A DNA stretch of 43,363 nucleotides from Nitrospirota bacterium (GTDB lineage: Bacteria; Nitrospirota; JACRHL01). Numbering within the stretch: the stretch's first letter is position 1; each line of letters opens with the position of its first letter. The notes below the pieces were generated by a model. It saw only the letters and a program-made list of their open reading frames with translations. It made no database searches and was not told the origin of the DNA. This document shows, one piece after another, positions 5,480-43,363 of the stretch. A program made the translations under genes and the position numbers. The DNA is taken from contig JAOUMB010000001.1 of the NCBI GenBank assembly GCA_029881725.1, positions 81,321 to 124,683 on the forward strand. Reading direction: 5' to 3'.

Positions 5480-8400
5480 CTACCCCTTGCCCCCGCCGGG
5501 CTTGACGATGCCCAGCTTGGCCATGCGCGAACGCAGGGTGTTCGGATGCATCCCGAGAACCGCCGCCGCCCCCCGGGAACCGGCAATCTTTCCACCGGTT
5601 TCTTCCAGAATTTCCACAATGTGTGCCCGCTCCACCGCCTCCAGGGTGCGGTTTCCGGAGGCTTCGGCCCCGCCGCCCACTCCGAGGGCCGCCGGGTCGA
5701 TGTGGATCACCCGGCGGCGGGCCACGATTACCGCGCGCTCGATCACATTTTGTAGCTCGCGGATATTGCCTGGCCACGGGTAGGTCATCAGCCGTTGCAT
5801 GGAGCCGGTGGAAATACCGTCCACCGGTTTTCCATAACGCTCGGCAAAACCGCCCAGAAAGTGCTGCACCAGCGCGGGAATGTCCTCGGTGCGCTTCCTG
5901 AGCGGCGGAATTTTAAGCGGAAACACGTTCAGGCGGTAAAACAGGTCGGTGCGGAAACGGCCCGCGTCCACCATCTGCTGCAAATCCCGGTTGGTGGCGG
6001 CAATGATGCGCACGTCACAGCGCACGGTGCGGTTGCCACCCACACGCTCGAATTCCCCCTCCTGCAACACCCGCAGAAGCTTGACCTGGGCGTCCAGCGG
6101 CAATTCGCCGATCTCGTCCAGAAACAGGGTCCCGCCATCGGCCAGCTCAAACCGCCCCACCCGCTGCCGTTCGGCGCCGGTAAACGAGCCGGCCTCGTGG
6201 CCGAACAACTCGCTTTCCACCAGGTTTTCCGGAATCGCCCCGCAATTGATTTTCACCATCGGGCGGCCGCTGCGGCGGCTCAGGTCGTGCACCGCGCGGG
6301 CGATCAGCTCCTTGCCGGTACCGCTCTCACCGTGAATCAGCACCGCCGCGCCGGTGGGCGCCACCTGTTCAACCTTGCCCAGGATTTCAGCCAGGGAGGC
6401 ACTCTGGCCAACAATCTCCTCGAACCGCTGCTCGGTGCGCAGTTCCTCCTGCAGATAGATGTTCTCGGCCTGCAAACGCTCCTTCAGCCGTTCCACTTCC
6501 TCCAGCGCCTTGCGCGCCTCCTCCTCGGCGCTGTGGGTGCGGCTCACGTCCACCGCCACCCCCACCAGACCGGTACAGCGGCCCACCGGATCAAAGCGCG
6601 GGGTCAACTGCGTCTCGAATGCCACGCCATCCATCACCGCGGTGTAATGACACGGTTGACCCGACAGGCCCTTGCGGATCTCCTCGATAATGTCCGGGTA
6701 ATCGCGGTACAGGTCGAATACCGTGCGCCCCACCACCTCACCCGGTTCCAGCCCCATCCGTTTCAGGCCGCTCCCCTCGGAGAGGGTAAAGCACCCATCC
6801 GCGTCCAGCGCAAACAGGACCATTTCCGCCACCCCCACCACGGAGCGCATCAGTTGGTCGCGGCTGCGGGCGAATGCCTCCGCCTCGCGCAGGCCGGTAA
6901 GGTCGGTCAGCGTCACCGCCAGTTGCCCGAAGCCCTTTCCAGCGGTGGGGATGCCAAACGACACCAGCACGCTGATCTCGCGGCCGCTCAGGGTACGGAA
7001 CGGAATTTCCCGGTCGAACCGGGCGGCACCGTCAAACATGGCAATCAGGGAGGACCGGTAGCCGTCCCAGGTGCCGGCCAGAAAGCAGCGGTCGAAAGCC
7101 GTCACCAGTTGTTCCCGGCTGTCTGCCTCGAACAGGCGCACCGCCGCGGCGTTGGCATTGACCACCCGCATGTCCGAGGCAATCTCCCGCACCTGTCCGG
7201 GGTTGTCATCCAGCCAGCGGCCCAGATCGGTCACCCGCTGTTTTTTGCGCAGGGCCTCCAGACGGGTGTGCACCCCGCTCATATCCTGTTCCAGCATGGC
7301 GGTGGCCGACGACTCGATCAGGTGGCGGTAGCGCTCCTCGCTGGACTTGAGCTGCCCCTCGGCCTCACGCTGCCCGGTCACATCGCGGGCGGTGGCATAG
7401 ACCAGCCCGTCCGGCGTGGAAACGGCGTTCCACACCAGATGACGCCAGGCGCCGTTCCGGGTGCGTACCCGTTTTTCCACGGCCACCACCGGCTGGCCCT
7501 TTTGCAGCGCCTGGATGTGCCTGCGGCTGATTTTCCGGTCGTCCGGATGCACAAAGTCCAGAAACTGCCTGCCGATCAGCTCTTCGGGCGTATACCCCAA
7601 CAGGTCTGTAAATGCCGGGTTGATGCGCCGAAAAGTTCCGTCCGCCGCCGCCACGCACAACAGGTCGTAGGACAGGTTGAAAAAGTTGCCGAGTTGCTCC
7701 TCCTGGTCGCGCCGCTCGGTAATGTCGTCGATGATGCCGCTGACCCGCAGCACGCCGTTGGCATCCGGCGGCAACGCCGTCGCCCGGTCACGTACCCAGC
7801 GCGTGGTGCCGTCGGCCCGCACCACCCGGTAGTCCAGCTCGTAGCGGTCCCGCGCACCCGACACCAGCGTGCCAAAGGCCCAGGTGAGTGCCTCCCGGTC
7901 ATCCGGATGCACATGGGCCATCCACGTGTCCGGCCGGTCGTAAATCTCCTGTGCGGTGACCCCCCAGGTGCGCTCGAAGGCCGGACTCAGGTACAACACC
8001 CGGAGCGGATCGCCCACCTCGACAAACCAGAATGCCTGATCGATGTGTTCGGCCAGCATCCGGAAGCGCTCCTCGCTCTCCTGGATCAGCCGCTCCGCCT
8101 CGTGGCGCTCCGTGATGTCCTCGTAGCACCCCATCACCCCCACCACCGAGCCGTCCGCTCCCCGCAGCGGCACCTTGCTGGTGCGCAGCCAGCGCTGTTC
8201 TCCATTGGGAGTGGTGAGGCCTTCCTCGTAATTCAGTTTCGGAATCCCGCTTTCGATCACCTGGCGATCGTCCCGCCGGTATTCCTCGGCACGGTCTTTC
8301 CAGCCCAGTTCAAAATCCTGGCGACCGATGATCTCTTCCTGGCGGTTCAACCCCGCATCCCTGGCGAACAGGTGGTTGCACCCCTCATACACCAGATTGG

Positions 8401-39687: not shown

Positions 39688-41147
39688 GCGTCGTCCTCTT
39701 CGAATTCGCCCAGCACGGCCTCCAGCCGTTCCGTCAGCGGCCAGATGTCGTCCGGCTCGTCGATCCCCGCCGCTTCAGCGAGCGCCTCGAACCGGTGCCA
39801 TCCGGCTCCCCACAACGCCCGCAGGCGGGTGGCGGCTCCCGGATCGGCAAACCAGGCGGTTCCGAATTCCTCTTCCAGCCCGGTCAGAATCTGTGCGGCA
39901 AGGAAGTGGCCGCGCAGGGTGAACAGGTCTTCCAGAAACCAGCGGGTGTCGGCCAGATAGTGGTCACGCTCAAAACGCGCGCCGGTGGCCTTGTGCAGAT
40001 AATGCTCAAATGCGTCGGCCTTGTCCATGGGTTCACCGGGGCCGTGCAGGTAACGGGCGAAGCCGGCCATGCCGTGCAGGCGGCGCACCTCATACAGCCA
40101 CCACAGATGGAAAAGACGGGTTTGCGGCTGCGCCTCGGTTTTGGGCAGATGGCGCCGGATCCACTCGGGATTGCCGTACAGGCTGGCAAACACCGCCTGC
40201 CAGCAGGCCCGCACCGCCGGATCAATGAGCGCCTTGGACGGCTCATCCGCCGGCGCATGGGCCAGCCCCACGGCCACTGCGGCGCCGGACAGCCATTCCA
40301 CCGGGGCAATCCAGGTGGCTTCCGGGCGGGCGATCAGGCGCACGTCCTGGGGGACGCGGACGGCCGCCACGGTCACTCCCGGCAGTTTGCCTTCGCGGGC
40401 GCCCAGGTCCGCCGTCAGGCCGGGAATCGCGTCCAGCGCCAGCCCCAGTTCCCGGAAGGTGGCGCCCACCAGTTCCGCCGCGTCGGGAATGCCCCGCGCC
40501 GGTCCCCAGGCCCCGCCCCACAGGTAGACCATGTCGTGATAACGGGCATCCTCCGGGAACACCCCGGCGGCCCGCAACGGTTCCGCCATCAGCGCGCCAA
40601 AGGTGCCCGCGCTGTCCTCGGCCAGGCCGTCCGCCTCCTCCAGCAACGCGGCCACGTCCACCCCGTACAGGGCCTGGCACATGGCCGTATAGCCGGTAAA
40701 CCCCCGATCCACCATGAGCGTGTGGCTCTGCTCCAGCACCTTCAGGTAATCGGGTTCATGGCGGGCCAGCGCACGGCGCCAGGCCTGATCCAGCAGCTTG
40801 CGCTGCTTGCGGTTGCACTCGGCGGTGATGCGCTCCCGGGTGTCGGCGAAAAACCACTTGTCTTCCAGCCCCTTGAGGCGCTCCCCATGCAGTTCCATGC
40901 GGATCCGGTCGAGGCCCGGGGCGCATCCCCCCGCAATCTGGGCACGCACCAGATGGGCGAACAGCGGGCGCACCTGGGGATCGTCGGCCCGGGGGCGCAG
41001 TTCGGCCACCTCCTCGGCTCGCATCAATAAAGGATGGGCACCATAGGCGAAGGTGGTGCGCAGATCTTCCGCGCGGCCCGCCGCGTATTCTCCAGCCGCC
41101 TCGTGAAGCGCTCCCTGCAGGTCCGCCAGTTCGGCCGCCAGCGGCAT
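39684..41147 (-). CDS. Peptidase-M3-like protein without the HExxH zinc site (probable pseudo-peptidase)
   Basis: A 487-residue protein. The C-terminal 130 residues match my memory of M3-type (oligopeptidase-like) C-terminal helices: [57 protein letters not shown]. The preceding strand [18 protein letters not shown] corresponds to the segment just before the zinc helix. Where HExGH should follow, the sequence is [15 protein letters not shown] (residues 284-298), with no HExxH. The later Glu ligand region also appears changed ([17 protein letters not shown]). Proteolysis is therefore unlikely, and binding or scaffolding is plausible. The ATG overlaps the upstream stop codon (TGATG). The assignment rests on remembered family patterns, not on a search. 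Confidence 0.6.
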
Positions 41148-41992
41148 CAACTCCACCCGCTCTCCTCCAGAAAGCGCCACCGGTCAAAGGTGAGTCCCGC
41201 ATCCGGGTTATCCGTCTGGTGCTGGAAAATCGCGCTGGCGATTCCCTCCGGGGTGGGGCTCGTCAGTTCCGGGGATTCCAGCAGCGCGGTCAGGCGCGCC
41301 TTGAGGGCCTCGTCATGCAAACGCAGGGCGTCCACCCGTGCCCGGGGCGGCAACTGCCGGTCGCACAGGATGGTGGCCGACAGCAGGTTGCGCGCCAGCC
41401 GGTCGCCAAAGTTGCCGGTAACATCCGGGTTCAGGTCGGGGATCAGGTCCAGCTTGTGGAAGAACATGCCCATTTCTTCCGGCCCCAGGCACAGGCTGAT
41501 GACGTTGATCAGGTAGTCGATGCGCTTGAGGATCGGCAGCCGTTCCGCCGCGTGCTGGCTCCACAGGGTGGCAATGCGTTTGTAAACCGGCACCCGGTTG
41601 ATCTTCTGGATCAGCTGCCCCTCCATGTTCTCCAGCGAGGTGAACATGTCCACCGGGGTGAAGAAATCGGGGGTCAGCACCTGTTCCGCATCGCGTAAAA
41701 ATTCGTCGGGCACGAACACCACCAGATGGGCGTCCGGGTCGGCGGCCACCCGTTCCGCCAGTTGCTCCGGAGTGATGTGCAGCGGCCCCGGCGCCTGCGG
41801 ATGCAGCACGTAGGCGCTCTGGAAATCGGCGCGGATGCGCAGGTTGTTGCAGGCCGCCTCCATCAGCGGCAGCGGCAGATTGCCCACCCCGTACACAGAC
41901 GCATCGTCCGGGTCCACAAGGCGCTCCAGCCCCTGCCCGAGGAAGTTGGCGAAGATGTTCGCAAAACCGGCTTCAGAGAGAGTTTGACGCAT
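41147..41992 (-). CDS. Hypothetical protein, first gene of the ten-gene run
   Basis: A 281-residue protein that I do not recognise. It is soluble, without signal peptide or membrane helix. Visible segments are a helical N-terminus (RQTLSEAGFANIFANFLGQG), an alpha/beta-looking middle (GNLPLPLMEAACNNLRIRAD, DAHLVVFVPDEFL) and a helical C-terminal half (VYKRIATLWSQHAAERLPIL, RIDYLINVISLCLGPEEMGM, RLARNLLSATILCDRQLPPR). ATG 41992 opens the protein; the frame to 42094 runs through the palindromic promoter region and is rejected. It is tightly coupled to the pseudo-M3 gene (TGATG), so the two products probably act together. Confidence 0.72.
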   Translation of the reverse strand: MRQTLSEAGFANIFANFLGQGLERLVDPDDASVYGVGNLPLPLMEAACNNLRIRADFQSAYVLHPQAPGPLHITPEQLAERVAADPDAHLVVFVPDEFLRDAEQVLTPDFFTPVDMFTSLENMEGQLIQKINRVPVYKRIATLWSQHAAERLPILKRIDYLINVISLCLGPEEMGMFFHKLDLIPDLNPDVTGNFGDRLARNLLSATILCDRQLPPRARVDALRLHDEALKARLTALLESPELTSPTPEGIASAIFQHQTDNPDAGLTFDRWRFLEESGWS

Positions 41993-42082
41993 CGGAGCAG
42001 GGTACCGGATGGTCAGTCGGCGTGCAACCGGGAGCGGCGTACTACCTGCGCCCGGCCCTTGGAGATCAGTGCGTCCCAACCC

Positions 42083-42108: not shown

Positions 42109-42158
42109 AAAATGTAAACGTTCTACCAATAGGTTCTCACCGAAAAGTGGAGGGCGCC

Positions 42159-43363
42159 ATGTATCGCTTTCGCTATGGGGTTCCGGGGAGGAAGATGGCT
42201 ATATGCGTAGTTGCAGCCATGTTATTGGTCATTCTCCCTCCCCCCTCCGGGGCTATTGCTCAAGGAGGCCTTTCAACTCTTCAGGTTGCGGTTCAGGCAT
42301 TGGAAGCCCGTGTACTCACACTTGAAACCACCATCGCTATCCAGGACGCCCGAATCATAACCTTGGAAACCCAGACTTCGGCGCTGCAAGCCTCTATCGG
42401 CGCGCAGGACACACGAATCTCGGCTCTGGAAACAACCACCGCCAGCCAACTGGCTCAGATCACCACGTTGGAATCCCAGAGTGCCACTCTACAGGCCTCT
42501 CTCGCTACGCAGGACACCCGCGTTGCGGCGATCGAGAGCAACAGTGTACTAACGCTAAACGGTCATTTAAGCCTGATTTCCCAAAGCGGCCGCGACACAG
42601 CGATTTTTGAAAGGGTTAACGTGCAGGTCGTCAACGGTTCCGGAGGGACGTCAACGGCCCCCAACGGTTTGGGTAACCTGATTGTTGGGTATAACGAGAT
42701 GCAATCGGTAATAAAAAATGAAAACAAATGCACCAACGGAGTGTCTACCACTTCGCTGGACTGCACATCAAAGGGCTACATCTGGATACCTTCGTTTGCC
42801 AAGGGAGGGTCACATAACCTGATTGTGGGGCCCGGACACATCTACCCGTTTATCGGCGGCATTGCGTTCGGAGCAGAAAATACGCTGATGGGAAACTTCG
42901 CTTCGATCACCGGTGGCACTCGAAACACTGCTCGTGGCGAGTGGGCAAACGTTGTTGGAGGGACTGACAATGTCGCCGGTTACATGTCATTGGTGGTTGG
43001 GGGCAGCCAAAACCGCGCCACCGCCAACCTCTCCAGTGCGATTGGGGGAACCCGCAACGTCGCGAGCAGCTACCTGGCAACAGTAGTTGGCGGATCATCA
43101 AATACCGCCGCAGGAAATGGAGCGACAGTCAGCGGCGGCTTTTCGCGCAAGGAGACCGGTGAATACGCGTGGGCGGACGGAACACTGATTCAGTCGATTC
43201 AAGGTGAACTCGCAGCCCTTTCCTCGGGTGTTGCAAATTACGAGTCCCGACTGGCCGCCGTTGAAGCCAACAGTGTGATCGCACTGGATGGAAAACTTCG
43301 GTTGGATTCCTCAAGCGGCTATGCAACTGCGTTGTTCGAAGGGGTAAACGTACAAGTGGTCAG
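42159..43363 (+). CDS. Exported coiled-coil/YadA-head-like repeat protein (3' end outside window)
   Basis: An open frame of 401 residues running off the window. ATG 42159 follows GGAGGG at four bases. Residues 1-34 form a signal peptide ending in SGAIA. Residues 45-128 are a heptad-type coiled coil with a 36-residue repeat (SALQASIGAQDTRISALE, then ATLQASLATQDTRVAAIE). A beta segment (129-158) and a Cys-containing insert (CTNG...LDCTSKG) follow. Six units of about 15 residues of the form GGTxNxAxG (249-330) resemble trimeric-adhesin heads. From residue 364 the first module starts again (RLAAVEANSVIALDGKLRLD). GC content and codon choice (TTA, CTA, ATA, GTA) are lower and looser than in neighbouring genes, suggesting transfer. 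It is probably a surface fibre or adhesin. Confidence 0.85.
   Translation, partial: MYRFRYGVPGRKMAICVVAAMLLVILPPPSGAIAQGGLSTLQVAVQALEARVLTLETTIAIQDARIITLETQTSALQASIGAQDTRISALETTTASQLAQITTLESQSATLQASLATQDTRVAAIESNSVLTLNGHLSLISQSGRDTAIFERVNVQVVNGSGGTSTAPNGLGNLIVGYNEMQSVIKNENKCTNGVSTTSLDCTSKGYIWIPSFAKGGSHNLIVGPGHIYPFIGGIAFGAENTLMGNFASITGGTRNTARGEWANVVGGTDNVAGYMSLVVGGSQNRATANLSSAIGGTRNVASSYLATVVGGSSNTAAGNGATVSGGFSRKETGEYAWADGTLIQSIQGELAALSSGVANYESRLAAVEANSVIALDGKLRLDSSSGYATALFEGVNVQVV

Follow-up and report, generated by a model that had tools for sequence, protein, structure and literature searches.

The last reading frame of the window, that is, of the whole 43,363-nucleotide stretch analysed here (positions 81321-124683 of contig C61 from a Nitrospirota genome), is still open where both the window and the contig end at 124683. 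It raises the question of what kind of protein starts at this place, how far it continues and where it would act. Our analysis leads us to consider it probable that the frame encodes an exported, homotrimeric stalk-and-head fibre of two modules and about 560 residues, which has no membrane anchor, was recently gained and serves an adhesive or matrix role.

Module layout and family of the interrupted frame

The first-pass annotation, made from the sequence alone, had described a modular protein of coil, beta segment and head repeats whose second module begins at the window edge. This description is right (Table 1), and a complete relative with three modules exists (L017). Residues 121-158 do recur as residues 364-401 at the annotated offset of 243 residues: the two copies align without gaps, share 24/38 residues and 70/114 bases, and their enclosing segments reach a Smith-Waterman score of 134, while 1000 shuffles gave a mean of 26 and a maximum of 47. 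The head period of about 15 in six units was equally borne out, as the self-identity of residues 233-345 is highest at lag 15 (32/98; the next best lag gives 14 matches) and the six GG units are spaced by 14-15 residues. The annotation went further and took coil, beta segment and head together as a repeated unit, of which one part stands. Since no more than about 60 residues of the second unit lie before the contig end, repetition is seen for the coil end and the beta segment, while a second head is suggested from another contig of the assembly, C82, only.

Table 1. Features of the fibre locus, in window coordinates
Feature	Position	Strand	Basis or remark
Modular fibre protein ORF, 401 residues	42159..43361	+	frame interrupted by contig end
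Putative Sec signal peptide, residues 1-34 (...SGAIA/Q)	42159..42260	+	translation and hydrophobicity rule
Coiled-coil stalk, residues 39-127; RhxxhE at 51, 65, 86, 121	42273..42539	+	AlphaFold2 helix, heptad period, motif count
Family core: beta hairpin (VNVQVVNG...GLGNLIVGYNE...GSHNLIVG...GG), residues 137-237	42567..42869	+	conserved alignment columns; strands 137-150
Head: probable beta-roll, six GG units, period 15, residues 234-340	42858..43178	+	self-matches; profile match to UspA1 head 3pr7
W-x-x-G-T-L module end, residues 338-343	43170..43187	+	alignment; tails of relatives
Second module, as far as visible: short coil of residues 347-371 with RhxxhE at 364, then second core start	43197..43361, to contig end	+	repeat alignment, AlphaFold2, motif
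Neighbour of 282 aa upstream, without a Pfam match; marks insertion site	41147..41995	-	synteny

The ATG at 42159 is preceded by GGAGG at 42149-42153, and M13 (42195) is an alternative possible start. The N-terminus is hydrophobic; from the translation and a simple hydrophobicity rule, cleavage is likely behind AIA. In the AlphaFold2 model the helix of residues 39-127 has a pLDDT mostly above 90, the head about 64-89, and a second helix spans residues 347-371. Profile and alignment place the family core blocks GLGNLIVGYN and GSHNL in the window protein; W338, G341 and L343 are nearly invariant across the family alignment, and most relatives terminate at the position of this module end.

No Pfam or NCBIfam model scored above its cut-off for the window protein, and in the open-access literature searched we found no paper recognisably on this fibre family. 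A scan of one-genome-per-species contigs in which the single protein was the query gave 88 matching stretches, and not one of them was confirmed; a profile of three cores later found relatives in the same contigs, 268 being confirmed among 311 stretches. By record titles they belong to Pseudomonadota, Myxococcota, Nitrospirota, Aquificota, Planctomycetota, Binatota, Hydrogenedentota and others, and within the own phylum 15 of 395 genomes match the family. G191, a genome of this phylum, has its entire locus in common with record L030, a Nitrospirae MAG (3321 of 3321 31-mers). Our survey took the best 80 of the 268 confirmed relatives, and so leans to close relatives, together with loci from the searches of the own genome, same-family genomes, the phylum and IMG/VR. 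It yielded 117 frames, 102 of them complete, and this number counts some genes more than once, where overlapping loci gave fragments of them (cut copies of the paralogue P0002 described below are one case). One module is present in 98 complete and 13 cut frames, two in three complete and two cut frames, and three in a single frame; the complete multi-module relatives are L017, L052, L061 and L069. Complete frames have a median length of 376 aa, and the longest frame of the survey has 951 aa. Among the 102 complete frames 67 end in W-x-[AGC] and 17 on or near a proline, and most of 103 frames have an N-terminus that is hydrophobic by the simple rule, with a lipobox-like motif in 10 of the 103. 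The window protein is an uncommon multi-module member of a broad, widespread and unnamed fibre family.

Several loci carry tandem copies; in L037, L061 and L085 three to four family genes follow one another. A motif, IPxTFxxGTPAxAxEVNxNF, lies between signal and coil in many relatives, among them L014, L018, L020 and L037, and this motif is absent from the window protein and from P0002. When the flanking frames of 80 named loci were compared all against all by blastp, no clear recurrent partner gene emerged; the largest clusters of flanking genes were judged by inspection to be alternative frames of family genes or general kinases.

The probable continuation on a second contig and the likely gain of the locus

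A protein search of the own genome located the family on C61 and C82 only, barring a match on C81 (E 1.3) that we took for a chance coil match. C82 (8034 bases), read inward from its end at 8034, carries P0003, then a second copy, 80 bases long, of the 3' end of acs, then P0002 and finally acs in the opposite direction. P0002 is a complete single-module paralogue of 429 aa, while P0003 is a 126-residue open C-terminal fragment with a stop, lying at the open end of the contig. In three of three same-family genomes (G001, G002, G003) acs and a homologue of the 282-aa window neighbour are adjacent on one strand; conservation there extends to the ROK gene that precedes acs and to the window gene that follows the neighbour, and no member of the fibre family was found in these three genomes, which came from the relatives search. 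Given this adjacency, the ends of C61 and C82 most likely face each other across an unsized gap, and the DNA between acs and the neighbour would be an insertion. The last 100 bases of C61 match nowhere else in the assembly, so the contig does not break at a near-identical repeat that is present in it.

The window ORF and P0003 have a low G+C content (0.55 and 0.51) compared with P0002 (0.643), acs (0.654) and the window as a whole (0.655), and their GC3 of 0.58 and 0.51 stands against 0.87-0.88 in mutS and acs. The site that is empty in three of three relatives and the low G+C, taken with the tree described next, point to a recent gain of the window gene and its paralogue between acs and the 282-aa neighbour. 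A tree of 47 cores was built from 34 loci, picked because they are close to the window or contain multi-module proteins; hits shorter than about 75 residues, including the second module of the window, were omitted. It pairs the window core with P0002 as sisters (98/94), on a side made up mostly of gammaproteobacterial members. Of the Nitrospirota members, G014 and L085 lie away from this pair, and L030 is on the same broad side. On C82 (L009) the tail of acs and its 80-base copy (98%), at 5841-5920 and 7550-7629, have the P0002 gene between them; these direct repeats look like the trace of a cassette insertion that would have restored the end of acs. No integrase was seen near the acs-tail repeats on C82. 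At the opposite end of this contig there is a transposase-like frame (L009 54-1064, IS3-type by eye).

Phage contigs that carry relatives may have been one vehicle for this gain. One could go further and suppose that the gene itself is a phage-derived exported fibre or cargo gene, spread by phages and acting in phage-host contact, since relatives occur on four IMG/VR contigs, on two of them among phage genes, and since the window gene appears to be recently gained. We consider this unlikely: searches of 50,697 phage records and 72,556 plasmid records returned nothing, relatives are far commoner in host genomes (the 268 of 311 stretches above), and the copies of this genome sit between acs and its neighbour with no phage genes in the assembled part. 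Virion fibres are not known to carry N-terminal export signals of this kind, which we also count against a phage origin. Matches of the family in PHROGs are mostly weak and coil-like. Family genes with an export-type N-terminus were seen at L119 4839-6327, near genes for ribonucleotide reductase, thymidylate synthase and virion structural proteins, and at L120 1407-2309, near genes for NAMPT and for RNA and DNA ligases.

How far the window frame continues is most simply answered by joining it to P0003, whose alignment to the head of module 1 has 48/117 identical columns and which ends in ...IYQNQHFP, resembling the proline-type tails of the survey. If P0003 ends the window gene, about 35 residues are missing, as estimated from the alignment to P0002. 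The joined protein would most likely have two modules and then a stop, with neither a long array nor an anchor; P0002 and P0003 both stop without one. P0003 may instead terminate another gene, and further modules or a third gene may be present in the gap.

The first-pass annotation had thought that the whole protein may be very long and had proposed to extend the contig and count its modules. The contig ends at the window edge; synteny most likely places the C82 end with its stop alongside. A very long adhesin with many further modules in the gap would fit the frame that is open at the contig end, the three modules of L017 and the general experience that an assembly break within a repeat is a usual sign of an array. 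It is nonetheless quite improbable, because no contig of the genome besides C61 and C82 bears a module (C81 giving only its match at E 1.3), the last 100 bases recur nowhere in the assembly, C82 supplies a family C-terminus with a stop, and 98 of the 102 complete relatives have one module, no frame exceeding 951 aa. The claim of great length is thus not supported.

The same annotation had called the duplication old, on the ground of high silent divergence between the copies. The divergence is real and saturated: among the 24 identical residues, 9 are encoded by the same codon in both copies, when 8.0 are expected by chance. With saturated silent sites the age of the copies can be given no more precisely than "not recent". 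Moreover, copy 2 is closer to P0002 (28/37 residues identical) than to copy 1 (24/38), and copy 1 shares 22/37 with P0002. As copy 2 is nearer to the paralogue than to its companion, the second module may equally well have been captured from a paralogue or have arisen by internal duplication, and an old duplication is unproven.

Coil, head and proposed working of the fibre

The coil has a clean heptad period of 3.5. The motif RhxxhE occurs 86 times in the 117 frames, compared with a mean of 2.56 and a maximum of 8 in shuffles that keep the register (non-hydrophobic residues shuffled in place); the reversed motif is not enriched (4 observed, 2.4 in shuffles). At least one RhxxhE is present in 60 of the 117 frames, and the window protein has five. 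The motif is described as stabilising parallel trimeric coils (PMC5940361).

Lag 15 is the best one in 93 of 94 family heads, and the spacing from GG to GG is 15 in 614 cases. A 35-member profile searched against solved structures matched the UspA1 head 3pr7 with an E-value of 4.8e-52, a kind of value that repeats inflate, and a phage tail-needle coil at 5.4e-8; it matched no solved autotransporter head at E <= 0.01 other than pieces of UspA1. The family core had no match among solved structures at E <= 0.01 (best 0.038). AlphaFold2 monomer models were weak (mean pLDDT 70.2 and 64.6), and Foldseek gave no solved match at E <= 0.001 for both of them and none for one of them in a viral library. 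Single-chain models of intertwined trimers are poor, and we therefore set these Foldseek negatives aside as uninformative. With weak monomer models and no Foldseek match, the fold of the head rests on sequence; we take the family head to be a probable UspA1-type beta-roll.

We propose that the fibre would work as follows. The N-terminal hydrophobic signal would direct Sec export, and three chains would zip along the coiled coil, with the RhxxhE motifs setting a putative parallel trimer. The conserved hairpin core would lead the coil into a head that is probably a left-handed beta-roll of 15-residue GG layers. Past W-x-x-G-x-L, a short coil and the second core would put at least two beads in line, and the rest of module 2 with the stop is most likely the C82 fragment P0003, which would complete a chain of about 560 residues with no membrane anchor. 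By a putative route the protein would be released outside or kept in the envelope, where it may act as an adhesive or matrix fibre. Two secretin-domain proteins are encoded in the own genome; they permit, and do not demonstrate, a type II route that the protein may take.

If this reading is right, a sizeable family of exported and apparently trimeric proteins in uncultured bacteria is nameless in Pfam and NCBIfam, adhesin heads are usable without an autotransporter anchor, and the unusual head of UspA1 gains an origin that can be tested, as multi-bead fibres gain a natural design.

Comparison with known systems

The head match to UspA1 and the trimer-type coil could be taken to indicate a trimeric autotransporter adhesin (TAA) of the YadA/UspA1 type, whose C-terminal anchor would lie beyond the contig end. 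A YadA-type anchor had indeed been suggested as something to look for, and it gained no support: YadA_anchor (PF03895) was not found in the own genome, while the E. coli control matched, and the relatives surveyed stop at the head or shortly past it. A hydrophobic 18-mer past the core, itself borderline, was seen in just 1 of the 102 complete relatives, P0002 and P0003 stop without an anchor, and the stalk precedes the head, the reverse of the TAA order. We therefore regard an anchored adhesin as very unlikely. An ice-binding or antifreeze beta-roll protein is hardly credible at all, for although LbR_Ice_bind (PF21300) matches 16 of 35 members (best 5.4e-12), the window protein (E 6.1e-4) scores 20.3 bits where the curated cut-off is 30, relatives also come from Aquificales MAGs, and UspA1 is matched far more strongly than the grass protein 3ult (4.8e-52 versus 3.2e-5).

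The anchorless fibre that we favour resembles several known systems in part. Both it and the phage tail-needle gp26 (PDB 4lin) have a trimer-type coiled coil, and the window protein matches gp26 with a phmmer E of 7.1e-6, but this match is confined to the coil, is of a kind easily given by low-complexity coils, and comes with no common core or head. Within the family, the closest example of the layout is a 931-residue frame of Marinicella litoralis KMM 3900 (L017:3834-6611) with three modules of coil, core, head and W.xG.L. That frame, unlike the window gene, is complete and has a tail of the DWVAGSL type, which differs from the ...IYQNQHFP of the C82 fragment.

The TAAs in general (YadA, EibD, BpaC) follow a similar modular plan of coil and beta-roll, and their modules are described as duplicated or omitted (PMC2942831); the 14-residue head layers and the C-terminal membrane anchor of YadA, EibD and BpaC were neither of them seen here. 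LPBR heads are described as having 14-residue layers, with UspA1, a protein of 863 aa, as an exception that has mostly 15 and an extra glycine at position 9 (PMC9543794). It is this UspA1 head of Moraxella catarrhalis (PDB 3pr7) that the family resembles in its 15-residue GG repeats and in the profile match over the head, whereas UspA1 is an anchored TAA and the family has its coil N-terminal to the head, a conserved core before the head and, in the relatives surveyed, no anchor after it. One may tentatively, and with considerable doubt, picture the family as an undescribed and mostly environmental group of anchorless, stalk-first trimeric fibres that crosses phyla and is in some cases carried by phages, that formed the reservoir for the 15-residue head of UspA1, and whose multi-module members lengthen by taking modules from neighbouring paralogues. 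In the window protein the order is signal, coil, core and head, and not head before stalk as in type Vc. We thus do not class it as a trimeric autotransporter adhesin; it would rather work like an adhesin passenger turned round.
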